Source: Deltaproteobacteria bacterium HGW-Deltaproteobacteria-13 (GTDB taxonomy: Bacteria; Desulfobacterota; Syntrophia; Syntrophales; Smithellaceae). From it: DNA of 64,000 bases. Of the stretch, positions 8,469 to 24,518 are shown piece after piece. Both the position numbers and the translations under genes were made by a program. The notes under the pieces were generated by a model. The model searched no databases, was not told the origin of the DNA, and saw only the letters and a list, made by a program, of their open reading frames with translations. The stretch covers positions 95,634 through 159,633 of the forward strand of contig PHBJ01000005.1 of the NCBI GenBank assembly GCA_002840555.1, read 5' to 3'. Positions within the stretch are counted from its first letter, which is position 1; the number at the start of each line of letters is the position of its first letter.

Positions 8469-9066
8469 ATGATTAATGATTACCTCCTTCACATATGTTT
8501 ACCAACAAAAGATACATTTTCTAAAGTCGTCGAATCGGTCAGATGTCCTGATCAAAATCCAGCGCTCAGACCCTTGAGGAATACGACCCTCTATCCGGTT
8601 TGTGAATTACAAAACAAACCGGATGTTTTATTTAACATAAACTTTTTCCGGGGAAAGTCAACACATTTATTTAATTATTTCAAGTAGTTATGTAATTTAA
8701 AGCATATGCAATTTGAAGCATATACTCTTGGAAAGGATCAATTTGCGGATTAAGTATTTATTCTTTCTTAACTTCTTGAACTTTTATTTCGTCTGAAATA
8801 GCAAACCCAAATAATGGCCGATGAAACAAAAAAAGCAGACGGAGTGTATTTCGTCTGCTTTTTTGAAACCTTTTTTGGGTCATTATTCTTTATTTTTTAT
8901 TCTTCTATTTTATACCGGACATCATACAAACTCCTTCATTGCTGTTTTGCGGTGATCTGATTACTTTATACAGTCGTGACAGTCTCAACCACCAATTATA
9001 CGCACTATAAAATATACGTTAAACAAACACCCCGTCAGACACAGAAGAAAATGTTTCACTACATAT
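8469..9066. promoter_or_regulatory. Leader and intergenic region upstream of the molybdoenzyme operon
   Basis: A 598-base gene-free region. It holds an inverted repeat 125-155 bases upstream of the start (ATCCGGTTTGT at 8593-8603, ACAAACCGGAT at 8614-8624), either an operator or a leader hairpin, and the terminator at 8828-8864. No consensus promoter was convincing. The ModE-like gene immediately upstream is a candidate regulator. Confidence 0.5.
8828..8864. terminator. Rho-independent terminator (bidirectional)
   Basis: AAAAAAAGCAGACG (8828-8841), a 10-base loop, then CGTCTGCTTTTTT (8852-8864). It lies downstream of the ModE-like gene and would isolate it from the molybdoenzyme operon. Confidence 0.88.
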
Positions 9067-10536: not shown

Positions 10537-13500
10537 TTATTTTATCTGAAGGCCTTCAAGGACAACCTCAATTCTGTTGTTTTTCTTTCGTCCTTCCTTT
10601 GTCTTATTGCTGGCGACCGGTTGATTAGGGCCATATCCTAAAGCATTGATACGGGAAGCGTTAATCCCAAATTTCTTTACAAGGTATCGCTTTACACTAT
10701 CAGCGCGGTTTTGAGATAATATCATGTTGAAACCTTCTTTGCCGGCATTGTCAGTGTGCCCTATTATTTCAATGCTGATTTCAGGATGTGCTTTCATGAA
10801 ATCGGCTAATTTCCTGACGCTTTCATGATATTTCTTATTGATAACTATCTTCGTGTTATTGAATTGAACATTAAGTATAATAGAGACTTTCTCCGGCTTT
10901 TTTTCAACAACGGCGGGCATAATATTTTTTGTCGCCGGCAATGGCTCCGGGATAACCGGCAACTGGGCTGCCGCCTCGTCTTCTTCATAATGTAACTTGC
11001 CTTTCAGTAACGAAGACGCCAAAACAGGTGATGATGCCGGTACAATATTCTTTGGAGCAGACAACGGCGTCTTGGCAGACGAAGCATCTTTGGCCGTTGT
11101 TGCTGTTACCGGGACAAACGACGGGGATGTCTGTGAAGCATTGCACTGAATTTCTCCGATATCCGTAATAGCTTCTTTTGTTTCCGGAAAGGTTACATCA
11201 AATTCGCATTTGCCGTCTTCATATTCCACTTTAGCCTTGTATGTTCCCGGCGGAATGGCATTGCCGCCGGATTTTATTTTCCGGGCAATCGCTTGACAGC
11301 TCATTTGATCTGCCGCGGTTTCCGTGCTCTGATCTGTGGGCAGGCTGTTTTCCATGTAAAATTCCCCGCCTTTTCCCGTGGGAAAGGGTAAATTCTTTTC
11401 ACCGACTTTAACGGATATTTCGACAAATTCCAGCGGTGTTTTCTTGCCTTCTTTTTGCGCGACCAGTGTCCCCGTAAGCGCGCGCATCTCCTGCGCATCG
11501 AAGTAAACACAGGAACCGCTCCATAACGAGGGAGAAATTGTCTTATTAACGTCGGATATCGTGTAATCAATCGGAATATTTTTCGTATCAAGCGTGATCT
11601 TGTTTTGTCCATAGGATGAAAGGGTCGGCACAACCATTGAGCCGAAATAACCGGTCTTGCCGATTTCCTGGCCGTTGTTGAGCACTGCTGCGCCGGGAAC
11701 TTCTTTATTGAGCACCACGATGCCAAAACTGTCGCTGACCGGCCTTGATAATCCGAAAAATCCACCCGCATATACGAGCGAACCGGCGGCGGATAAATTA
11801 TACAATTCGGATGTTTTCCCCGAAGAGATCCCTTGTATGATAGCATCAATGGAATAAATGCCGTATTTGGCGTTATACTGCACATAAGGATTTAAGGATG
11901 TTGCCGTACTGGAAGCCGTCTCTGTACGATTCATGGAAGCGCGATAACCGATACCTTCCCCGACAGGGGTGTCTTTCTGCAATTGCAGAGTTTCCGTATT
12001 CACGTCACCACTGCCGGCGCTTGCCTGTGCCGAACCGCGAACACCCTTGCCAATATCGAAATTAAGACCGACAAAACAACTATACGTTGTATCATCAATG
12101 CGGGTGGCCGAAGCGGTTGTAAAGAGACTTACGGATTTATAGAGCGTTCGGGAGTAGTTGAGAGAAAGTACACGCGTATCAATACCCTTGAATGTTGCTG
12201 TTTCCGCATAATTAACGGAAAAGCTTCCCAGAGGATCCAGCAAAAAACCCATTCCGAAATTCATTTCCAGCTGGTTGCCGTCCGCCGTTTGCGCTTTAGC
12301 GGCAGCAGTAGAGTAGTCACGGGTAAATCCGCGCAGAAGCAGATTTGTATTGAAACTGCCGCTTTGAAAAGAATGCTGTAAAGATAAAGCACCGCCCAAA
12401 TCGTTGCCGCTTGCGGAACTCCCGGCAAGAAAAAGCGTGAATTGGCCGATACGGGGAACTGCGACGGCTGCGGACACTCCACCGTTATAAGTGCCGTCGG
12501 AACCTTCCACCCTGGCTCCGATGTTAAGGGAATTCGTCACGCCGTAACGGTGGAACGCGGAAAAGGCGGTTTTACCGTATTGATCGCTTTCCACACCGTA
12601 ATTTTCCCGCAGGAATCCGGCATTATAGCTGTATTCATGCAAACCTTGCCGCAGCATCTGCGAGCTGAAATACGCCAGATAGGAAATCTTCTGCACATTT
12701 CCGAACGGGTCCTTGAGCAAAACCTCAACGTTGTGAGAGCCGGTGTAGGAATAAAGATTTTTCAAATCGAACGACCCGGGTGTAATGGTTTGTTTACCTA
12801 TCAATACGCCATCCAGATAGATTTCCGCCTGAGTGGGAAAAATGACGGAACCCTTGAGATCCATGACCGGCTGGGTGATGAAATAGGGATCTATTCTGTA
12901 AACCTTGGAAAAACCTATTCCACCCAGATTTACAGTGCTTCCCAGATTTCCGGAATTTGCGTACTGGTCGCCCACCACAAGCCATTGGAGATCTCCCCGA
13001 CGTTCGTACGTGGCGCTGCTCTGAAGACGCACGAAATTATCACTGGTTTCCGTTTTGGTGTACAGCGAGTCGGATGTAAAAAAAACATCTCCGGCTCTCA
13101 GGCCCAGTTTGTTCGTAATGGCAAAAGATTGAAATCCGTCGGTGTTCGTATAGGAATAAGCCAGTCCATAATTAAGAAAGGCGCTTGTTTCCCGCGGGAA
13201 GTAGATGTTTTTAGCCGCAGCCTGAAGTGCAAAAAGATCGGTGGCGGTCCTCCCCGATTCCGTTGTTTTACCGATTACCGCAACAGTGAGTTTCTTTTCA
13301 TCGAAAGTATATGTAACATCAAGCAGAGCGCTCAGGGGAACGTATTGTTCGTCTCCCCGGAGAATGACAACCTTATTCTCGGCATATTGCAACTTCAGGG
13401 TTTTGACATCTTCTATGCGTATGAATAAATTCTGCTCGTTGTCCAATTCGGCGAAAAAATCACCTTTCGGCTCCGTGTTAACAATGAAATTTACAACTAT

Positions 13501-13701
13501 TTGCGTTGTGTCTTTTGCAGATGCGGGAATCGTTGAGCCGTTTGAGGGCTTGCTTTTAACCGGCAAGGATACAGTAGGAACCGTAATCGGCTCAGCGGCT
13601 TTTTCTTCAGCTGAAAATGCGACGGAGGTTAAAAAGGAACCCAACAGGATTACAACGGGAATAAAAAATAATGTCTTTTTGTACGATGGGATCAAAGACA
13701 T
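10537..13701 (-). CDS. Chaperone-usher pathway outer-membrane usher with C-terminal OmpA domain
   Basis: About 1054 residues from the preferred start MSLIPSYKK, which gives a clean signal peptide ending SVAFSAEE; an in-frame ATG at 13806 would add 35 residues and overlap the chaperone stop. The bulk is an archaic (Csu-type) FimD usher: N-terminal periplasmic domain, then a long beta-barrel with the plug region (AEIYLDGVLIG, TGSHNVEVLLKDPFG). After a Pro/Ala/Thr-rich linker, the last 115 or so residues are an OmpA-like peptidoglycan-binding domain (IEIIGHTDNAG, NMILSQNRADSV, KKNNRIEVVL). Such a fusion is unusual for ushers and would tie the pilus assembly pore to the cell wall. Confidence 0.9.
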   Translation of the reverse strand: MSLIPSYKKTLFFIPVVILLGSFLTSVAFSAEEKAAEPITVPTVSLPVKSKPSNGSTIPASAKDTTQIVVNFIVNTEPKGDFFAELDNEQNLFIRIEDVKTLKLQYAENKVVILRGDEQYVPLSALLDVTYTFDEKKLTVAVIGKTTESGRTATDLFALQAAAKNIYFPRETSAFLNYGLAYSYTNTDGFQSFAITNKLGLRAGDVFFTSDSLYTKTETSDNFVRLQSSATYERRGDLQWLVVGDQYANSGNLGSTVNLGGIGFSKVYRIDPYFITQPVMDLKGSVIFPTQAEIYLDGVLIGKQTITPGSFDLKNLYSYTGSHNVEVLLKDPFGNVQKISYLAYFSSQMLRQGLHEYSYNAGFLRENYGVESDQYGKTAFSAFHRYGVTNSLNIGARVEGSDGTYNGGVSAAVAVPRIGQFTLFLAGSSASGNDLGGALSLQHSFQSGSFNTNLLLRGFTRDYSTAAAKAQTADGNQLEMNFGMGFLLDPLGSFSVNYAETATFKGIDTRVLSLNYSRTLYKSVSLFTTASATRIDDTTYSCFVGLNFDIGKGVRGSAQASAGSGDVNTETLQLQKDTPVGEGIGYRASMNRTETASSTATSLNPYVQYNAKYGIYSIDAIIQGISSGKTSELYNLSAAGSLVYAGGFFGLSRPVSDSFGIVVLNKEVPGAAVLNNGQEIGKTGYFGSMVVPTLSSYGQNKITLDTKNIPIDYTISDVNKTISPSLWSGSCVYFDAQEMRALTGTLVAQKEGKKTPLEFVEISVKVGEKNLPFPTGKGGEFYMENSLPTDQSTETAADQMSCQAIARKIKSGGNAIPPGTYKAKVEYEDGKCEFDVTFPETKEAITDIGEIQCNASQTSPSFVPVTATTAKDASSAKTPLSAPKNIVPASSPVLASSLLKGKLHYEEDEAAAQLPVIPEPLPATKNIMPAVVEKKPEKVSIILNVQFNNTKIVINKKYHESVRKLADFMKAHPEISIEIIGHTDNAGKEGFNMILSQNRADSVKRYLVKKFGINASRINALGYGPNQPVASNKTKEGRKKNNRIEVVLEGLQIK

Positions 13702-13777
13702 TTTGCCATAATTAATTTTCCCGTTATTATGTTTTTTGCGTATCTCCCTGAATAATTTTTCAACTTTTCGCCAAAGA

Positions 13778-14584
13778 TTATTGTACGCACATATTCTTTT
13801 GAACATTCATTGTACCGTTGACATTGCCGGTTTCCGTTTGAGCGCTTACATCGATCGTCGTCAGCTTTCCGCAGACATCTTGCGGGACGTCTCCTTCATA
13901 AGCAAGGGACAAACCGCTTAAGATATACCAGCCGGCAACTTCCTTGGCGTACAACTCTTTCCCATCGGCAGTTTTTCCGCTGAATTTCACAGCGCGCAAT
14001 TTAACATGAACATTTCCCTTATTCTTGACAATGGTCTTTACTGCGCCCTTGGACATTTCGATCTTGTCAATAACATAATTCTCCTGCGGCTTCAAAGGTT
14101 TGACAAAAATCGGCATTGCGAACCGAAAGGCTATCGTGACGCCGGCCTTTACCTTTCCTTCGATCTTCACATCCGGTGCTTTTTTCGGTGAGGGAATCTC
14201 TTCCACGAAAAGGCGATAAGTCTTTTCCCTGACGGAGGGCGGCGTCCTGATTCCGATTCTGACAGCCCGCTGTTCGTTAGCCTCCACGGTCATGACATTG
14301 GGGAAAAACACAATCTCTTTCGTATCCGCATATACGTCCTTGCCTTTTTCGTCCTGGTTCCACTCTTTAACCGATATTTGAAAATTGATTTTTTCTTTAC
14401 TATTGTTGATCACGGAGAATACGCCGCTTTTTACATTGCCGCCCAGATCCATCGTCGTCGGCTGCACCTGAAAGTCCGCCGCCCAGGCCGGAGAAATCAG
14501 AATGGCCGCAAAAAATAAACCGGCCGTTAATCCTGCGTATTTTTTGACTGACGCCTCAAATCCTTTAAAGAAAATTTTCCTCAT
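13778..14584 (-). CDS. Periplasmic pilus chaperone (PapD-like)
   Basis: 268 residues with a signal peptide ending AWAADF. It has two immunoglobulin-like domains: the first contains the VFSVINNS, INFQISVKEW and NEQRAVRIGI strands, the second begins near FAMPIFVKP. It would donate a strand to pilin subunits and deliver them to the usher. The start at 14584 has a CGGAG ribosome site; an ATG 48 bases upstream is less likely. It sits between the two-domain tip-like subunit and the usher, the usual order for Csu-type operons. Confidence 0.92.
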   Translation of the reverse strand: MRKIFFKGFEASVKKYAGLTAGLFFAAILISPAWAADFQVQPTTMDLGGNVKSGVFSVINNSKEKINFQISVKEWNQDEKGKDVYADTKEIVFFPNVMTVEANEQRAVRIGIRTPPSVREKTYRLFVEEIPSPKKAPDVKIEGKVKAGVTIAFRFAMPIFVKPLKPQENYVIDKIEMSKGAVKTIVKNKGNVHVKLRAVKFSGKTADGKELYAKEVAGWYILSGLSLAYEGDVPQDVCGKLTTIDVSAQTETGNVNGTMNVQKNMCVQ

Positions 14585-14764
14585 GCCACGTCTCCGTCTT
14601 TTGATTGAGATTTTTCTCCAGCATTTAAACAACTAAACAACTTTATTTAAAACTCAGAATAACAGATTATGAATAATGCTTTTTCAGTATACTTGCCAGT
14701 CAACGCCTTGTCAAGGACTCCTCTTCCATTATTTTTTACGAATTACGGTAACGGCCTGTCCTGT

Positions 14765-15646
14765 TTAATAAGTTATCGTGACGGTAATGGTATCGGTATG
14801 GGCGCCGGCCTGCGCATCCTGATACGCCGCCTGGGCAATTGTTAATCCGACAGGAATCGATGTTGCGGTAGAAAATCCGCTACCGGTTATGGAATTTGAT
14901 GATCCACAGGTTGTCACCGTGTAGGCAATCGGATCGGTCGCACCGTCATTGCCGATACTCAGATTGCCATGTAAAGCCGAACAGGAAACTGCATGCGTTG
15001 AATTTTTTGTGCACTTTATTGAAGGCGAAGTGTTGCCCGAATCGGTCGTTGTCGGCGTAAGCGCTCCCGAACCAGACGGATCGATATTGAAAGACATCGT
15101 TCCGCTTGCTGTTGAACCACATGTGTTTATAATAGTTGCTTTAACATCCGAAGCAACTGCCAGGATCGGATAAATTGCACCGCCGTCGCCAGTAATAGTA
15201 AATGTGACTACAGAGCTATTGGTATAATTACCTGCAGGCGCGTCTTGATAATCCGTCTGCTGTATTGTGGAAGTATTCGTCAGCAAGGTTTCTGTGGTGC
15301 CCCTGCATGACGATGATGCGGTGTAGCCTATCGTATAAGCGATTGAGCCTCCAACCGGACCGGTCAATGTCAATGAGGCGGGGGTGTATGAAGCGTTCCA
15401 GGTCCTGTTACCACCACAAGTGAAATACTGATTGGTCGTTATTGTGGCCATTTTATTGCCAGTCGAAGACGGATCAATACTGCCGAAATCCAATACTCCT
15501 CTCGAACAATATCCTCCCCCGGTCCACCAACAAGTATTATCGGAGCAACAATTGATCGCAGCATGAGCCCCTTGCGGTGTGCAAATCAGCGCAACCGATA
15601 ATAAGATTAAAATTATACATCCTGTTTTCAAGCTCATTCGCTTCAT
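14765..15646 (-). CDS. Two-domain spore-coat-U-type pilus protein, probable tip subunit
   Basis: 293 residues with a signal peptide (cleavage near AHAA) and two consecutive SCPU-type beta-sandwich domains (about 30-160 and 165-293). Two-domain architecture before the chaperone and usher genes matches the tip adhesin of Csu-type pili. The N-terminal domain is Cys-rich (CCSDNTC). The C-terminal domain is nearly the same as the small pilin at 16322-16795, sharing CTKNS-HAVSCS, GNDGATDPIAYT and AAYQDAQAGAH, which indicates recent duplication or gene conversion. An AAGGTG ribosome site precedes the ATG. Confidence 0.85.
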   Translation of the reverse strand: MKRMSLKTGCIILILLSVALICTPQGAHAAINCCSDNTCWWTGGGYCSRGVLDFGSIDPSSTGNKMATITTNQYFTCGGNRTWNASYTPASLTLTGPVGGSIAYTIGYTASSSCRGTTETLLTNTSTIQQTDYQDAPAGNYTNSSVVTFTITGDGGAIYPILAVASDVKATIINTCGSTASGTMSFNIDPSGSGALTPTTTDSGNTSPSIKCTKNSTHAVSCSALHGNLSIGNDGATDPIAYTVTTCGSSNSITGSGFSTATSIPVGLTIAQAAYQDAQAGAHTDTITVTITY

Positions 15647-15753: not shown

Positions 15754-16287
15754 CTAATAGGAGAGAGTCAGCGTCACCGTATCCGAATAGTCGGCATGAG
15801 CAAAGGCCGTCTGCGCGTTGGCCTGCAAAACCTTTATACTGATGCCGAGGGCTTTCGATGTGTTGTATCCAGCCCCGGTAAAATGACCGGCGCCGTCGGT
15901 GTCACCCGCGCACATAAAAACATATTCGACCATGTCTGCAGGCCAGCTGGCGGATTTAAGAACCATGCCGCTTACGCCGCCCGAAGTGCAGGTCTGGCCC
16001 ACGGCGGTCCCGTTGGCGCTGGATACTTTAACTGTAAAGACCATGCCATTGGAGCATCTGACCAGTTCATCGGCGCTCGGCGCAAAGGTCTGGTCGGTTG
16101 CCGTCTGCGTATCGATCGTAAGCGGATTAGGAAATGCCCCATGCTGGGCTTCCTCGCATGTGCCCAGAACTTGAGCATTCACCACAATGTTCGTGGAAGA
16201 AAGCTCCGCCGATCCTGCCGCTTTTATCTCACCTCCCACGACCGTGACAATGACCATCACGACCGCAGTTAAAAGTATCTTTTTCAT
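15754..16287 (-). CDS. Spore-coat-U-domain pilin subunit
   Basis: 177 residues with a signal peptide (MKKILLTAVV, cleavage near IKAAGSA) and one SCPU domain ending in the YSDTVTLTLSY donor-like strand. It would be exported and polymerised by donor-strand exchange through the chaperone and usher. It is the most divergent of the pilins here, with a longer Cys-containing middle region (CSNGMVF, QTCTSGG, FMCAGDTDG). Probably a minor or adaptor subunit. Confidence 0.85.
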   Translation of the reverse strand: MKKILLTAVVMVIVTVVGGEIKAAGSAELSSTNIVVNAQVLGTCEEAQHGAFPNPLTIDTQTATDQTFAPSADELVRCSNGMVFTVKVSSANGTAVGQTCTSGGVSGMVLKSASWPADMVEYVFMCAGDTDGAGHFTGAGYNTSKALGISIKVLQANAQTAFAHADYSDTVTLTLSY

Positions 16288-16321: not shown

Positions 16322-16795
16322 CTAATACGTGATCGTTACCGTAATGGTATCGGCATGAGCGCCGGCCTGCGCATCCTGATAGGCCGCCTGGGTAATCGTA
16401 ATTCCCACCGGAATCGACGTTGTCGTCGAAAAACCGCTTCCGGTTAGCGAGCCGGACGCTCCACAGGTCGTTATTGTATAGGCGATCGGATCGGTCGCAC
16501 CGTCATTACCGATGGTCAGTTGATTGCTGTGCGCCGACGAGCAGGAAACGGCATGCGATGAATTCTTCGTGCACTTTATCGACGGCGAAGAATTGCCGGC
16601 ATCAGTTGTTGCCGGCGTGAGCGACCCCGTACCTGACGGATCAATCGCAAAAGCGAGAGTTCCGCTTGTTGTCGACGTGCAGGTGTTGCTTACAGTGCCC
16701 GTCGGAGTTACTGTCGTGCTTCCCGATGCCCATACGGTATTTGCCACAAAAACTAATATCGCCATTACAGCCAACAATGTCATAAATCTTTTCAT
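16322..16795 (-). CDS. Small spore-coat-U-domain pilin subunit
   Basis: 157 residues: signal peptide (MKRFMTLLAVMAIL, cleavage after VWA) and one SCPU domain ending DTITVTITY. Very similar in protein and DNA to the C-terminal domain of the two-domain protein at 14765-15646. Follows the first pilin gene after a G+C-rich hairpin that probably separates the expression levels of major and minor subunits. Confidence 0.87.
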   Translation of the reverse strand: MKRFMTLLAVMAILVFVANTVWASGSTTVTPTGTVSNTCTSTTSGTLAFAIDPSGTGSLTPATTDAGNSSPSIKCTKNSSHAVSCSSAHSNQLTIGNDGATDPIAYTITTCGASGSLTGSGFSTTTSIPVGITITQAAYQDAQAGAHADTITVTITY

Positions 16796-16891: not shown

Positions 16892-17389
16892 CTAATATGA
16901 AATTGTCAGTGTAACTGTATCTTGATATGTTCCCGCCTGTGAAGCCTGTGCAGCTGCTGCTGTGACAGACGCTGCGGTCGCTGCAACAAGTTCTGTCGGG
17001 GTAGCACTCCCGAAACCCGCACCTGTAAAACTGGTTGTAAAAGCTAAAGTGTAAGGAATATTGCTATTAGATCCAACTGTATCTTTCAGAGCTCCGGTGA
17101 GTGGGCTTGTTCCAGTTGCCCCACCCACACCGTTTAGACTATCAGCTGTCACTGTGAACGGTGTAGTCCTTGTGCATTGTACCGTGGCTGCAGTACCTGT
17201 AGAGGCCACGGCACTCGTGGTCGAGGGATCAATAGCCAGATCCAACGGACCGCCTGCGATATCGTTACATTTCACGCTGACAGAAGCATTAACTGCTACA
17301 TCTCCTGATTTTGCATCAGCTGCAAACACCCCGCCTACCATTGCAATAACCAAAGCCATTGCCGCCAAAATTACTAAACTTTTTTTCAT
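16892..17389 (-). CDS. Probable major spore-coat-U-type pilin
   Basis: 165 residues from the ATG at 17389, which has a strong AGGAGG site; the upstream in-frame ATG at 17449 lacks one. The signal peptide ends VFAADAKSGD and one SCPU domain ends YQDTVTLTISY. It is first in the pilus operon, closest to the sigma-54-type promoter, and followed by a hairpin, all typical of the major shaft subunit. Rich in Ala, Thr and Ser with only two cysteines, which fits a polymerised pilin. Confidence 0.88.
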   Translation of the reverse strand: MKKSLVILAAMALVIAMVGGVFAADAKSGDVAVNASVSVKCNDIAGGPLDLAIDPSTTSAVASTGTAATVQCTRTTPFTVTADSLNGVGGATGTSPLTGALKDTVGSNSNIPYTLAFTTSFTGAGFGSATPTELVAATAASVTAAAAQASQAGTYQDTVTLTISY

Positions 17390-18161
17390 AACTTCCTCCT
17401 TTTGTCTGTGTAACACTAAACTTTTTTTACGATCATTCAGTTTCAGCACTTTTGTTCGTAAAATTTAATTTGTATAAAATAATAACCTTATTATCTTGTA
17501 CTCTAATCACCAGGTTATTCCAACAATGCCTATTGCAACTAAAGCAAGAGATATGCCATTACTATGCACATTGATAATATTTTCGTTCTTTAGCCCATAT
17601 CCTTCCAATGTGTTTATTTAAGTTAACTTTTTTGTTATCAGTCATAATCTTTTGCGAGAGAACTTTTTCTCGACTAACCGGAAAACTGCAAATGTTGGTG
17701 CCCTATCTACAATTATTGTAGGTAATTTTCGGTCAAATTTTAGAACTTTTAAACTTTCTTTAATTAAATTTACAGCGTCTTTTACTTCAAATAATCACCT
17801 ATGTTTTAAGATGATTAAGATTCATTACTTCTTCTAAATTTTTTTCAAATTAGACTTTTGTCAGAAACGTGCTGAACAGAACGAGAAACAACATACCGAT
17901 TGAAGAGTCGCGCGACTTTATTAAATGAATATTGTCTTGTCAAGTAAATTAAGGAGTCATTTATATTTAGAATGAGTTCTTATCTATAAAATAATTAAGT
18001 GACATAGATAATATGGATGTTTAAAAGAATTAATTTTCAGGTCGATACGGAAGGAATCAACCTAACCTATTGAAAAGAATAGACTTGAAAGAAAAGATTC
18101 GACTGACGGTAGGGGAAACAAAGATGCATCATTACAGGTTTATGCAGTTTTGAATAACTCT
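17390..18161. other. A+T-rich regulatory region upstream of the pilus operon
   Basis: A 772-base, strongly A+T-rich gap with no credible gene. It contains the sigma-54-type promoter (17543-17558) and, further upstream, an inverted repeat CTACAAT-T-ATTGTAG at 17707-17721, about 150 bases before the promoter. That is a suitable distance for an enhancer-binding activator, but the assignment is speculative. No c-di-GMP riboswitch pattern was seen. Confidence 0.45.
17543..17558 (-). promoter_or_regulatory. Sigma-54 (-24/-12) promoter of the pilus operon
   Basis: On the minus strand the sequence TGGCATATCTCTTGCT fits the consensus TGGCAYRNNNNTTGCW at every defined position, with the invariant GG and GC ten bases apart. 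Transcription would begin near 17531, about 140 bases before the major pilin start. Sigma-54 promoters need an NtrC-type activator; one such gene lies at the far right of the window, though no link is shown. Confidence 0.75.
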
Positions 18162-19277
18162 CTATTCCACGGGGCTCACAGAAAGTAAAAGAGGCCACGC
18201 ATACGTTCCTGCCTGTGACGACTTATCAAAAATAAAACGATAGTTAAGCGCCACGATAGACGTGCCGGTAATATGATGGGTGATAATTCCGCCATTAGGC
18301 CCCAGCGACACTTCTCTACCGATACCACTTACCAGGGCTTCCTTAAACGGCAAACCGCGGGTCTCGAAAGTCATAAATATTCCTGCTCTGCTGTTATTCT
18401 TTATTTCAACAAGAGAACCTGCATTCACATCCAGATAACCACGCCGAATGTCGGCATCCGTGACCACAAGTTCTGCCGGTTGCCGCAGCACTTGCATGCT
18501 CGCCCGCGCCAGCACCCTCGCGGTCACCTGGATCTGCGTGCTCATCGCTTGCGTGGATGACTGCGTCGCCGTTGCTTCTGAGACCGGCGCCAGAGACAGG
18601 GCGGCAATCAGAGCCGCGGCAACAAGTTTTTCCTGAATCCGGAGACCATGCTCGATATGGTTTTGTTGTGCATGTCCCGCCTCAACAAGCACCTCGCCGA
18701 GTTTCTTATTGCTTCCGCGCTGACGATACAGAGCGTCGTTAAGATGTTCAAGTGTGATATATCCGGCGGAAACAAGCAATTCTCCCAGCGACAGGCAGGA
18801 AGGCCCCCGCCCTTCACCCAGACGGGACTGGAAGGACAAAGTAATATCGAGTTCACGTTGATTGAGAAAACCAAGGCGAACCAGCACCTCGCCCAACTTT
18901 TCACCAGATTTCTTCTGCTCATCGAGGGCGGTATTAAGTTGACTCTGCGTGATACGACGCGCCGACATCAGTAATTCTCCCAGCATGCGGCGAACACCCG
19001 CAGCCGTATGGACGGCATCCTCGATTGTTGAAAAATCACGCTGAACCATCAGCACGGCGTCAAGCTCCACCCGATCGATCGCGCCGATATCAAGAAGGAT
19101 ATCGCCCAGCAGTTTGTTTGTTCGCATTTGCTCCGTGAGTGCAGCATCGAGAGCTTTGGAGTCAATAAACGCACCATCTATCAGGATGCGGCCAAGAGCA
19201 CGCTTAACAGGGAGAGCATAATGAATTTTCTCTTGTTCTTCTTGCTTACTCACATTCTTATGCATTTTTTTTACCAC
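18162..19277 (-). CDS. Triple MshEN-like module protein with transmembrane helix and exported pilin-like domain
   Basis: About 371 residues. Three tandem modules (about 27-80, 97-151, 162-216) each contain two copies of the pattern LGxxLhxxGxh-xxxL-xxL-xxQ, as in the GspE/MshE N-terminal (MshEN) fold, several of which bind cyclic di-GMP. One hydrophobic helix follows (about 217-236), then a beta-rich C-terminal domain ending SSQAGTYAWPLLLSV, which echoes the AGTYQDTVTLT end of the nearby pilins. Inferred topology is cytoplasmic sensor, membrane helix, periplasmic pilin- or chaperone-like domain. Not an ATPase: no Walker motifs. The start is ambiguous (GTG 19277 or TTG 19280) with an AGGAG site. 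It lies upstream of the pilus operon, same strand. Confidence 0.75.
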   Translation of the reverse strand: MVKKMHKNVSKQEEQEKIHYALPVKRALGRILIDGAFIDSKALDAALTEQMRTNKLLGDILLDIGAIDRVELDAVLMVQRDFSTIEDAVHTAAGVRRMLGELLMSARRITQSQLNTALDEQKKSGEKLGEVLVRLGFLNQRELDITLSFQSRLGEGRGPSCLSLGELLVSAGYITLEHLNDALYRQRGSNKKLGEVLVEAGHAQQNHIEHGLRIQEKLVAAALIAALSLAPVSEATATQSSTQAMSTQIQVTARVLARASMQVLRQPAELVVTDADIRRGYLDVNAGSLVEIKNNSRAGIFMTFETRGLPFKEALVSGIGREVSLGPNGGIITHHITGTSIVALNYRFIFDKSSQAGTYAWPLLLSVSPVE

Positions 19278-19690
19278 CAAATCTTCTCCTTAGTCTTCAA
19301 CACACCATCGAAGGTGCCGTCATCCAAAACTGATGACTTTAATTTACAGGCTATAACGAATTACCTTCTCAACTAAGATGGTAACTCCGCAATTTCGTAA
19401 TGTCAAGGAATTGTTGTAATAATGATAAACGGATTAACTTAATTTTGCGGACGACATTATTAATAATTTAATATTATTATATTTTAATTTAACAACTCAC
19501 ATCTTTCTTTTATTCTTGATCCTCAGTTATGAACATAGTTATTCACAGAGTTATCAACCGGTTTGTATTAACTGTTCATATCATCTGTATTGCCGCTTGA
19601 GTCCCTCCTAATTTCTTATCCAAAGACGTCTCACACTCACCCCAAATAAATTATTCCGGGCATACCTTTGGGGCAAGCCAAAACATCTCT
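19278..19690. other. Divergent intergenic region with A+T-rich tract and DnaA-box-like repeats
   Basis: No gene seen. A very A+T-rich stretch (about 19430-19500) is followed by three 12-base-spaced repeats at 19526, 19538 and 19550 (TTATGAACA, TTATTCACA, TTATCAACC); the middle one fits the DnaA-box consensus TTATNCACA. It could be a DnaA-responsive promoter element or chance; no dnaA or other replication gene is near. Confidence 0.35.
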
Positions 19691-20466: not shown

Positions 20467-23442
20467 ATGCAAACATCACAGCAAAGCGCCCAAAAAAGTT
20501 TTATGAACACCCTGGCCGGTCTTTTTTTCAAATTTTTTGCCTTTAATTTCAATACGCGGCCGTCATTAAACAAATACCTCAAGTGCGATGACGGCTGGAT
20601 AAATTTTACCTTCGGTATAAAAACAGAAAACGGCAGTGTGGAACAGGCGATGGCGTTTGAAAACGGAAAGGTCCGTGTCTTAAATAACATTCCGGAAAAA
20701 CCGGACGCCCAGCTTATCTTTGCGGATGAAGACGCTGTCAAAGATGCGGCCACCCTGCCTCCCAACCGATTGATGCTGGCCCTGATGGAAAACAGAATCG
20801 TTACCCGCGGCAACCTCGGTTATCTTCAATTAATCAACTTTTACCTTTCGCTTCTTTTAAAACACATCCATATTGCCAAGCTGAAAAAAGAAACTAAAAC
20901 GGAGAAGCGAAAGTATGATTCGGCAAAAGCGGCAAAAAACAGCATCGAGGGAAGATCGCTGCGGCAACTTAAGGCCGCCGCCGTCGATCCGGGCGTTAAG
21001 TTTTTACCCGACCCCTATCTCGCGGAATATTCCTTGAATGACTTTCCGAGAGTAAAGGACTTTCTGGACATCCATTTAAAAACCCGTGCGGCCATCTGTC
21101 ATGAGCGGCCGGAGCTTCTGACCCGATACTACAGAGAAAACGGTTTTGAAACCGACAAAAACGGCAAGGCCCTGGTTCCCGAACTGCGTCAGGCGCAGGC
21201 GTTCAAATATCTGATGGAAAATAAAATACCCCTGATCAGAAAAAACGATCTTATTGCCGGAACCAATACCACCAAGGAAATAGGCGTCATCATCTACCCG
21301 GACGCGCACGGCACAATGATCTGGCCGGAACTGATTACCGCGCCTTACAGGCCGCTGAACCCCTATGATGTCGATCCTGAAACCATGGATGTGCTTCACA
21401 ACAAAGTTTTTCCTTTCTGGATCGGGCGCAATTTTCGCGAATGGGTAAGAGATCATAAAGGATATCCTACCTGCCAGAAACTCGATGAGCGTTTTGCCGC
21501 CTGTTTCCTGTGGAAAACCGTTGCGCTGTCTCACACCATCCTGAATTATCCTGAAATATTAAAACTGGGAACAAACGGCATCATAGCGAAGATAGATAAG
21601 GAACTAAGCGAAACGCCAAAATCCGAACAGCAAAAGCTCGATACGCTCCGGGCAATGAAAATCAGCCTCGAGGGAATCAATGCCTATGCGAAAAATCTTT
21701 CGGGAGAAGCCGAACGGCTCGTCAGGCAGGAAACGGAACCCGTTCGCAAAAACGAATTGCTTCATCTTGCCGGCATCTGCGGACGCGTTCCGCAAAATCC
21801 CTGCACAACGTTCGATGAAGCTGTCAATGCCATGTGGATTATGTGGATCGGGGTGCATATGGAAAACACCAACGCCGGATTTTCTCTGGGACGCCTCGAT
21901 CAATGGCTGCAGCCTTATTTTACGGCTGACATGGAAAAACTAAAAAACGAAAGGGATAAACAGCAATATATAAAACACGCCATCGAACTGATCGGCTGCT
22001 TTTATATGCGCTGCACAGATCACCTGCCTCTCATACCGGATATCGGGAACTATCTGTTCGGCGGCTCATCCTCCGATCAGGCCATTACTCTCGGCGGCGT
22101 GACGCCGGAAGGCGAGGACGCGGTCAATGATATGACCTACATCTTTTTGAAAGTCACGGAAATGCTCTCCATTCGCGATCCCAACGTTAACGCCCGCTAC
22201 AACAGGAGTAAAAACAGCACGGCCTATCTAAAACGTCTTTGCGAGGTCAATTTAAATACCACCGCGACGCCTTCGATTCACAATGATGAGGCTGTCATGG
22301 CGTCGCTCGCGGAATTTAATTATCCGGCCGAACATCTGCGCGACTGGTCGGCAACCGGCTGCGTGGAACCAACGCTTTCCGGCCGCCATATCGGCCATAC
22401 CAACTGTATGATGTTTAATATGGTGGCGGCCTTCGAAATGGCGCTCAATAACGGCAGGCATCCTTTGATGCGCTGGGATCTGGGTCCCAAAACCGGAGAC
22501 ATCAAGGCCGGAGACTTTAAGGACTATGAATCGTTCTTTAATGCTTTTGCGACACAACTTCGTTTCCTGGCGGATCAAACGTGCGAATACAACAATTTTC
22601 TGGGCGAGGCTCATCAGGCTATCCGCCCGACCCCTTTTATTTCCGCCCTGATAGAAGGTTCTCTGAAAAGCGGGAAAGACGTTACCAAAGGCGGCGCTCT
22701 TTACAACTCATCAGGAACCGCCTGCATCGGTCTTGCCGATATTACCGATTCACTGATGGTGATCAAGAAACTCGTCTTTGAAGAGAAAAAAATAGCTTTC
22801 GGACAACTGCTGGATGCCGTTAACACAAACTTTAAAAATGATCCTGCTTTGCTCGCTTTGATAAAAAACAAGATTACACTTTTCGGCTCGGGGAACGAAG
22901 AAGCACTGGCGACCGCCAACCGCGTAACGAAGCTTGCCCACGATATTTTCATAGAACATACAAATTATCGCGGCGGCAAATATACAGCGGGTTTCTGGTC
23001 CATGTCCAACCATGTGGCGTTCGGTACCCTGACCGGGGCACTTCCTTCGGGAAGACTGGCCGGCAAAGCATTTACTCCCGGACTGACGCCCGAACCGCAC
23101 GCCTCGAAAAGTATTCTGGATAACATCCGCGATGTTGCCAAATTAAAACCGGAAAACATGAACAACAATATCGCTTTTAATGTAAAGGTCGTGCCCAGCG
23201 CCGAAGAGTCTCATCAAAAAACCGTGGATAACATTTATTCATACGTAAAAACATACAGCGATCTTGGCGGCATGCAGATCCAGTTGAATGTCGTGTCGTC
23301 AAAGACACTCCGGGACGCCATGGAGCATCCTGAGAACTATCAGAATCTGCTGGTCCGCATATCCGGTTACAACGCCTATTTTGTGACCCTCAACAGGGAC
23401 ATGCAGATCGAGCTGATTGAGAGGGCCGAATTCGGCATATAA
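20467..23442 (+). CDS. Glycyl radical enzyme with SCP2-like N-terminal domain, function unknown
   Basis: 991 residues. From about residue 150 it is a pyruvate-formate-lyase-like glycyl radical enzyme: the thiyl cysteine is Cys632 in ATGCVEPTLSG, with Glu634 as in GRE dehydratases and lyases, and the glycyl radical is Gly967 in VRISGYNAYFVTL. The first 130 residues are extra. They look like an SCP2 lipid-binding domain (DAQLIFADEDAVKDA, NRIVTRGNLGYLQLINFYL). Typical GREs have about 780-850 residues, so the size fits a fusion. It is oxygen-sensitive and cytoplasmic, activated by the next gene. The GCVEP motif argues against pyruvate formate-lyase, but the substrate is not assignable; the SCP2-like part hints at a hydrophobic one. 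Confidence 0.9.
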   Translation: MQTSQQSAQKSFMNTLAGLFFKFFAFNFNTRPSLNKYLKCDDGWINFTFGIKTENGSVEQAMAFENGKVRVLNNIPEKPDAQLIFADEDAVKDAATLPPNRLMLALMENRIVTRGNLGYLQLINFYLSLLLKHIHIAKLKKETKTEKRKYDSAKAAKNSIEGRSLRQLKAAAVDPGVKFLPDPYLAEYSLNDFPRVKDFLDIHLKTRAAICHERPELLTRYYRENGFETDKNGKALVPELRQAQAFKYLMENKIPLIRKNDLIAGTNTTKEIGVIIYPDAHGTMIWPELITAPYRPLNPYDVDPETMDVLHNKVFPFWIGRNFREWVRDHKGYPTCQKLDERFAACFLWKTVALSHTILNYPEILKLGTNGIIAKIDKELSETPKSEQQKLDTLRAMKISLEGINAYAKNLSGEAERLVRQETEPVRKNELLHLAGICGRVPQNPCTTFDEAVNAMWIMWIGVHMENTNAGFSLGRLDQWLQPYFTADMEKLKNERDKQQYIKHAIELIGCFYMRCTDHLPLIPDIGNYLFGGSSSDQAITLGGVTPEGEDAVNDMTYIFLKVTEMLSIRDPNVNARYNRSKNSTAYLKRLCEVNLNTTATPSIHNDEAVMASLAEFNYPAEHLRDWSATGCVEPTLSGRHIGHTNCMMFNMVAAFEMALNNGRHPLMRWDLGPKTGDIKAGDFKDYESFFNAFATQLRFLADQTCEYNNFLGEAHQAIRPTPFISALIEGSLKSGKDVTKGGALYNSSGTACIGLADITDSLMVIKKLVFEEKKIAFGQLLDAVNTNFKNDPALLALIKNKITLFGSGNEEALATANRVTKLAHDIFIEHTNYRGGKYTAGFWSMSNHVAFGTLTGALPSGRLAGKAFTPGLTPEPHASKSILDNIRDVAKLKPENMNNNIAFNVKVVPSAEESHQKTVDNIYSYVKTYSDLGGMQIQLNVVSSKTLRDAMEHPENYQNLLVRISGYNAYFVTLNRDMQIELIERAEFGI

Positions 23443-23457
23443 TTTTATCAAGCCGCC

Positions 23458-23582
23458 TACCGGTTCTAAATCAAAGATGATATTGCGGCGGCTAGGCGGA
23501 GACGACGAGGCGTATTGTGTACATACGTTGAGGAAGCCGACAACGACGCCAACAAAAATAGCGCTTTGATTTAGAATTGGTA
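23458..23582. repeat. Dispersed palindromic repeat element, copy 1
   Basis: Imperfect terminal inverted arms (TACCGGTTCTAAATCAAAG at 23458-23476, and 23564-23582 which is complementary at 17 of 19 positions) enclose a core with GAGGCGTA-n-TACGTTGA, a signature shared with copy 2 at 56752. It sits between the glycyl radical enzyme and its activase and ends six bases before the activase ATG. Confidence 0.7.
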
Positions 23583-23588
23583 TTATTT

Positions 23589-24518
23589 ATGGCAAAAAAT
23601 GAAATGAAGACCCCTTTAATTCTGGAAATCAAAGGCAACAGCCTTGATGACGGGCCGGGCATTCGCTCCGTCGTATTCTATAAAGGATGTCCTCTCTCCT
23701 GCGTTTGGTGTCACAATCCGGAAAGTAAAAAATCTTCTGTCGAAATAGCATTTGACGGCAAGGTGTGCGTAAACTGCGGCGCCTGCCGCGATGTGTGTCC
23801 GGAAAAAGCACTCTCCCCGGACAATAAATATTATATCGACCGGAGCAGGTGCAATCTCTGTTTTTTATGCGTTGACGCATGCCCATCCGGCGCGCTCGAC
23901 AAAGTCGGGAAAAAAATGTCCGTTGAAAATATTATGAAAAAGATTCTTCCCGACAAACCGTTTTTCGATACATCGGGCGGCGGTGTAACCCTTTCGGGAG
24001 GCGAACCCACCCTGTATATGGAATTTACCTCCCAAATTTTGAGGGCGCTCAAACAGCATAATATTCACACACTGCTGGAAACCTGCGGTTTATTTGACAT
24101 GAAAAGATTCATGGACATGCTTTATCCGTATCTGGATATTATTTATTTTGACATAAAAATAATCGACAGCATGGCTCATGAAAAATACTGCGGTGTATCC
24201 AATGAGAAGATACTGGATAATTTCATGCAGCTTTCTAAAAAGGCTGCCAACGACGGAAAGATTCTTCTTCCGCGAACACCCCTTATTCCTGATATGACTG
24301 ACTCTGAAAGCAATATTCGGGGAATCGCTGCTTTTCTAAAAAGCCTGAATATTACCGAAGCGGCCCTGCTTGCGTATAATCCGCTATGGCATGAAAAAAG
24401 CGATAAAGTAGGCGTTGACGATCCTTATAAAAACGTTAAAATCATGACCTCTTTCCGCGACAATACCGTTTTGGAAAGATGTAAAGCTATATTCGCGGAT
24501 ACCGGGATAAACAGCTAA
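23589..24518 (+). CDS. Glycyl radical enzyme activating enzyme (radical SAM)
   Basis: 309 residues. It generates the glycyl radical on the upstream enzyme using S-adenosylmethionine. The radical-SAM motif C-x3-C-x2-C is visible in KGCPLSCVWCHNPE, followed by a ferredoxin insert with two clusters (CVNCGACRDVCP and CNLCFLCVDACP), as in activases of GRE dehydratases and lyases, then the GGGVTLSGGEPT motif. ATG at 23589 is the most likely start, but no clear ribosome site exists; the repeat just upstream may have displaced it. TTG at 23577 is also open. Confidence 0.93.
   Translation: MAKNEMKTPLILEIKGNSLDDGPGIRSVVFYKGCPLSCVWCHNPESKKSSVEIAFDGKVCVNCGACRDVCPEKALSPDNKYYIDRSRCNLCFLCVDACPSGALDKVGKKMSVENIMKKILPDKPFFDTSGGGVTLSGGEPTLYMEFTSQILRALKQHNIHTLLETCGLFDMKRFMDMLYPYLDIIYFDIKIIDSMAHEKYCGVSNEKILDNFMQLSKKAANDGKILLPRTPLIPDMTDSESNIRGIAAFLKSLNITEAALLAYNPLWHEKSDKVGVDDPYKNVKIMTSFRDNTVLERCKAIFADTGINS

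Follow-up and report, generated by a model that had tools for sequence, protein, structure and literature searches.

A protein with MshEN modules, a membrane helix and an exported domain as a candidate c-di-GMP switch beside a chaperone-usher pilus operon

In a 64,000-nucleotide stretch of DNA from Deltaproteobacteria bacterium HGW-Deltaproteobacteria-13 (the window) we analyzed a gene encoding a 367-aa protein that consists, in this order, of three MshEN modules, one membrane helix and a C-terminal domain (CTD) of about 127 aa, and that lies next to a chaperone-usher pilus operon. This protein is probably a single-pass inner-membrane receptor that reads cytoplasmic c-di-GMP and, through its CTD, relays the state to the periplasm, where the neighbouring chaperone-usher pilus is assembled. 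Sequence analysis shows three MshEN modules with the ligand-contact core, a signal-anchor-like helix and an exported CTD, and further to a conserved coupling to chaperone-usher operons and an exchange of the input domain. At this level the transmembrane switch proposed in an earlier sequence-only reading of the same DNA is supported. Because relatives in more than 20 species have pilus genes of this kind as neighbours, the protein probably links an internal signal directly to the building of pili beyond the inner membrane.

The open frame extends from 18162 to 19280 on the minus strand, with an ATG start at 19265 and the stop codon at 18162-18164, and the gene (18162..19265) was delimited from the open frame, the match to NCBIfam NF053729 and hydrophobicity. 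A Shine-Dalgarno-like AAGGAG is found upstream of this ATG; a TTG 15 bases upstream of the ATG is also possible as the start. Comparison with genus-level relatives gave dN/dS values of 0.06-0.20 for the parts encoding the modules and the CTD, which indicates that the gene is under selection, and these values together with its presence in 22 species rule out a spurious frame. The gene suspected within 18162-19277 is thus real, and it can now be given a strand. An arrangement of two genes, the second starting internally just before a signal peptide, is not favoured because no suitable start codon is available: the only in-frame starts between residues 171 and 245 are a GTG at 192 and an ATG at 241, the latter beyond the helix. 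No relatives of the protein were found on plasmids and viral contigs, and no c-di-GMP riboswitch or other known RNA was found between positions 9000 and 21000 of the window.

Judged by score and motif, the sensor part belongs to the MshEN family. NF053729 ('c-di-GMP_motif', the MshE-related c-di-GMP-binding motif; curated cut-off 38 bits) matches the protein in three stretches with an E value of 1.3e-40 and 137 bits, and it is matched by all 11 aligned full-length members (best E 3.8e-50). The best matches among solved structures are PilF (6f8l, E 9.7e-13) and MshE (5htl, E 4.8e-6). Each module is made of two 24-residue half-motifs separated by a spacer of exactly 5 residues, and the tandem array of paired half-motifs described by the sequence-only reading is thereby borne out. 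Module 1 covers residues 23-75 (19041..19199, minus strand) and module 2, which aligns with the V. cholerae MshE structure, residues 94-146 (18828..18986, minus strand). Module 3 was placed at residues 159-211 (18633..18791, minus strand) with the contact-position alignment over 11 species. Searches of the 367 aa with Pfam and NCBIfam profiles revealed no ATPase domain, and no Walker-type ATPase follows the MshEN modules, in agreement with the claim that none is present.

The published contact residues of MshEN are R1, L2, G3, L17, L21 and Q24 (PMC5013675), and this motif served as reference for counting contact positions in the alignment of 11 species. L2, G3, L21 and Q24 are kept in at least 9 of the 11 species in all six half-motifs, except for L2 in half-motifs 2b and 3b, where a conservative Ile is found; position 17 is Leu or Ile in the half-motifs of this protein. 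The stacking Arg of position 1 is only partly kept, the residue here being A, L, M, S or a conservative K. In this protein the Arg is missing from 1a, 1b and 2a and is a Ser in 3a, and module 1, with Ala or Leu in its place, is the least canonical of the three. Across the 11 species position 1 is hydrophobic, Gln or Pro in 1a, 1b and most of 2a, whereas it is Lys in 11/11 in the second half of module 2, which reads K-L-G...L...L..Q, Lys or Arg in 11/11 in 3b, and Arg in 7/11 in 3a, where members of this genus have Ser or Met. The likeness to the published motif, a comparison suggested by the sequence-only reading, therefore holds for the L2/G3/L21/Q24 core, present in all three modules, but only in part for the position-1 Arg. 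In MshE, changes of this Arg cost less than fivefold affinity, and single changes at conserved hydrophobic residues more than tenfold (PMC5013675). Since the core is kept and loss of the Arg is mild in MshE, modules 2 and 3 plausibly bind c-di-GMP, judging from the sequence, and for module 1 this is less plausible. There are 19 GGDEF matches in the genome, so c-di-GMP is surely made in this organism.

The membrane helix or signal-peptide-like segment LVAAALIAALSLAPV (residues 214-228; 18582..18626, minus strand) is the single hydrophobic segment of the protein, as had been read before, and lies two residues after Q211. Exactly two residues separate the last MshEN contact residue, a Gln (His in one member), from the hydrophobic helix in all MshEN members that span the membrane, as in LRIQEKLVAAAL, LKLQHKLVTAAL and LNLQSMLITATL. 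The full-length AlphaFold2 model, of low confidence (single sequence, no alignment; pLDDT 41), has one continuous helix from residue 201 to 224 across the junction. This invariant junction is the strongest hint at a mechanism, as the ligand-touching helix runs into the membrane. Downstream of the helix lies A-T-A (residues 231-233; 18567..18575, minus strand), a possible signal peptidase I motif and putative cleavage site, and an A-x-A or small residues are retained here in most relatives. Given the short h-region followed by A-x-A, signal peptidase might cut the helix, and such a cut would break the coupling across the membrane.

The CTD is a beta-rich domain of 127 residues (residues 241-367; 18165..18545, minus strand) with the signature YRF-x(n)-G-x-Y-x-W-P, ending in SQAGTYAWPLLLSVSPVE. 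Its sequence relatives include genes in which it stands behind an ordinary N-terminal signal peptide, which shows that it is an exported domain, as the sequence-only reading had it; the lone CTD that looks cytoplasmic, in genome G554, has no helix before it and lies far from ushers. No sequence relatives of the CTD were found in Pfam, NCBIfam and the PDB, and it is a new, previously unnamed domain family, whose members our profile A3 now makes it possible to recognise. An AlphaFold2 model of the CTD alone is all-beta (single sequence, pLDDT 52). With it Foldseek gave no match at E <= 0.001, and comparison with several pilus subunits gave Z values of 5-7, within the range of common arrangements. 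Weak VIA matches of the model were to the CanA cannula, the FmlH lectin domain, the PapG pilin domain, FimG and archaeal threads; these are what any beta-sandwich would give and we do not count them as evidence. The CTD could have a pilin-like fold. The resemblance of its end to the neighbouring pilins is literal and short, a SQAGTY string being common to both, but it does not extend to homology: none of 20 CTDs matched PF05229 (SCPU), and profile-profile comparison (hhalign) of 22 CTDs with SCPU pilins detected no homology (probability 1.2%). The CTD as a plain SCPU pilin is consequently not supported, and the likeness amounts to the shared string.

The pilin, chaperone and usher genes are on the same strand as the receptor gene, and Pfam confirms the SCPU pilins, PapD chaperone and usher named by the sequence-only reading. 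On the minus strand are two SCPU pilins (16892..17449, PF05229 E 1.3e-7; 16322..16795, PF05229 E 8.7e-5), a third, pilin-like subunit with a signal peptide and a pilin-like end (15754..16287, no Pfam match above cut-off), a two-domain tip or adhesin-like subunit (14765..15646, weak DUF4402 and SCPU matches, both below cut-off), a PapD-type chaperone (13778..14632, PF00345 E 5.7e-17) and an usher with a C-terminal OmpA-like domain (10537..13806, PF00577 E 7e-17 and PF00691 E 1.2e-22).

Several further features of these loci were noted. The OmpA-like domain after the usher barrel is of the peptidoglycan-binding type; such a fusion is suggested also in G586, G207 and G566 and is absent from the closest congeners, and a wall-anchored usher would be unusual. 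Two congeners have a PilZ gene between the receptor gene and the pilins (L022:8652-9137 and L023:8633-9118). The PilZ proteins (PF07238, E 5e-9 and 7e-7), whose N-terminus may be of the ribbon-helix-helix kind, are a possible second c-di-GMP receptor at the same locus and speak for the receptor reading; the corresponding interval of the window is a gap of 700 bases. The interval from the receptor gene to the pilins is occupied in G004 and G019 by a sigma-54 activator and a Fur-family regulator (L024:7144-9357 and L025:208-2423), and sigma-54 activators are found near the operon in G207 and G248 too. On the plus strand of the window, at 20467-24518, are a 991-aa pyruvate-formate-lyase-like glycyl radical enzyme, whose N-terminal ~200 residues are outside the PFL domain, and its radical-SAM activase; next come a gene resembling short-chain dehydrogenases and a DUF169 protein.

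Within the genus, the complete layout is preserved in three full-length relatives that are 66-75% identical. A search that used the CTD alone brought up two distant members, from two other families of the order, encoding one MshEN module, the helix and the CTD, and both sit exactly between chaperone and usher. Profile searches, with A1 first and then A3, found the CTD in 16 of 395 genomes sampled across the phylum, with further members in three classes. The intact three-module form is present in 22 species of the phylum; in 21 of them a chaperone and/or usher lies within a few kilobases, and in the 22nd (G368) the gene adjoins pilin genes. An usher (PF00577) was found in 21 of the 395 genomes, and 14 of the 16 genomes with a CTD have both (Fisher p = 7e-19, and 2e-13 at genus level, values that are only a guide because the genomes are not independent). 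This overlap covers 11 genera and many families, and the co-occurrence with chaperone-usher pilus genes anticipated by the sequence-only reading is therefore well founded. The two exceptions are G248, where a chaperone is adjacent and the gene is at a contig end, and G196, which has a signal-peptide CTD and no usher match. Split copies were also seen in such operons, one of the one-module form (G502, L064:9749-10900) and one of the three-module form (G615, L115); in both the MshEN part is spread over two reading frames and the helix and CTD are intact, pointing to an assembly error or a true frameshift.

Comparison of what precedes the CTD revealed four classes: three MshEN modules and the helix, in the 22 species; one MshEN module and the helix (G068 and G146); a receiver domain (PF00072, E 2e-20) and a helix (G450, G484 and G558, the last running off its contig); and a plain signal peptide (G163 with two copies, G207, G196, G566 and G578). 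The first three classes show that different cytoplasmic signal domains have been joined to the CTD and that the input is exchangeable. The starts of the receiver-CTD genes (L057:8942-9832, L054:9265-10158 and L103:5207-6103) overlap the 3' end of a PAS histidine-kinase gene, away from ushers, and their products would be response regulators with a periplasmic output. One further gene, in G554 (L105:2511-3221), joins an MshEN module to the CTD with no hydrophobic helix and adjoins an HD-domain gene (HD_5), with no usher nearby; by its sequence this CTD may be cytoplasmic.

For the receptor that we favour, the N-terminus would be cytoplasmic and the C-terminus periplasmic. Binding of c-di-GMP to modules 2 and 3 would shift the last MshEN helix, which is joined to the membrane helix at the fixed two-residue spacing, and the resulting shift of the membrane helix would move or dimerise the CTD. 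The CTD would then hold or release a partner in the periplasm. The chaperone, alone or in complex with pilins, is the most likely candidate, as a short inner-membrane tether would hardly reach the outer-membrane usher. As to the sign, general c-di-GMP biology leads us to guess that high c-di-GMP promotes pili.

The main rival, to which we give a small but real chance, is regulated export. Here the helix would be a cleavable signal peptide, the MshEN array (or the receiver) would gate entry of the CTD into the Sec channel, and cleavage at the A-x-A would free the CTD into the periplasm, as a soluble accessory protein or a minor subunit of the pilus, leaving an MshEN stub behind. In favour of this, the h-region is short, almost every member has A-x-A or small residues after it, and other CTDs carry ordinary signal peptides; however, cutting off 220 residues of folded receptor before a signal peptide would be costly, and the constant spacing between Gln and helix fits rigid helical coupling better.

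That the MshEN modules do not bind ligand and serve as an oligomerisation or docking scaffold, with the CTD tethered to the membrane as a factor in pilus assembly or as the base subunit, we consider improbable. The position-1 Arg is lost in half of the half-motifs, and XpsE/GspE of Xanthomonas, an MshEN domain with several altered contact residues, does not bind (PMC5013675), but XpsE has many replacements, whereas here the Leu-Gly-Leu-Gln core is kept in 6/6 half-motifs over many families and substitution of the Arg alone is the change with the mild, less than fivefold effect in MshE (PMC5013675). We regard it as very unlikely that the protein stands outside the pilus system, with the CTD binding another envelope target such as cell wall, glycan or a protease and the neighbourhood reflecting co-regulation. 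The receiver-CTD genes next to histidine kinases and the usher-less G196 would agree with this, but the position of the gene inside the operon, in the chaperone-usher or pilin-chaperone interval, in many families and the presence of an usher in nearly all CTD genomes (14/16) argue against it.

LapD senses c-di-GMP through degenerate GGDEF-EAL domains. Pfam and NCBIfam detected no such part in the 367-aa protein, which is thus not a member of the LapD family. It would nevertheless work like LapD of the inside-out LapD-LapG system of Pseudomonas fluorescens (PMC3032545, PMC3032553) in joining a cytoplasmic c-di-GMP module, here the putatively binding MshEN, through a membrane helix to a periplasmic output domain; LapD acts on the protease LapG and a large adhesin, and here the periplasmic domain is another one and the target would be a chaperone-usher pilus. 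The LapD analogue DvhD of Desulfovibrio vulgaris is likewise a c-di-GMP-dependent transmembrane switch acting on a periplasmic attachment factor (PMC13090378), which is what we propose from sequence here, but it has HD-GYP and a periplasmic dCache domain, without MshEN and without an usher, and our protein is not a DvhD member. MshEN receptors occur on ATPases and glycosyltransferases, namely MshE, PilB/PilF and NfrB (PMC5013675, PMC8669469). These share the sensory module family (NF053729), but there MshEN regulates the protein's own cytoplasmic catalytic domain, whereas here nothing catalytic follows it, but a membrane helix and then the exported CTD. The adjacent operon, with its SCPU pilins, PapD chaperone and usher, is of the type that encodes archaic (SCPU/Csu/CupE-type) pili (CupE, PMC10104325). 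The titles and abstracts found on archaic chaperone-usher systems and c-di-GMP, and on MshEN and ushers, report no second-messenger receptor as a component of such an operon, and the literature searched contains no description of the MshEN-helix-CTD arrangement.

To our knowledge, the regulation of chaperone-usher pili acts on gene expression. Their assembly is located in the periplasm and outer membrane and is not known to be under direct command from the cytoplasm. We see an even chance that the proteins described here form a new, modular class of one-protein transmitters, in which swappable inputs (three MshEN modules, one MshEN module or a phosphorylatable receiver) are linked by a helix to a new exported domain and which would give chaperone-usher pili a post-translational on/off control by c-di-GMP. 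The occurrence of MshEN or a two-component receiver before the same CTD offers a natural domain-swap experiment on single-pass signal transfer across the membrane. If our reading is true, a c-di-GMP receptor encoded in the operon and with an exported half would put adhesion under immediate post-translational control by the main biofilm signal.
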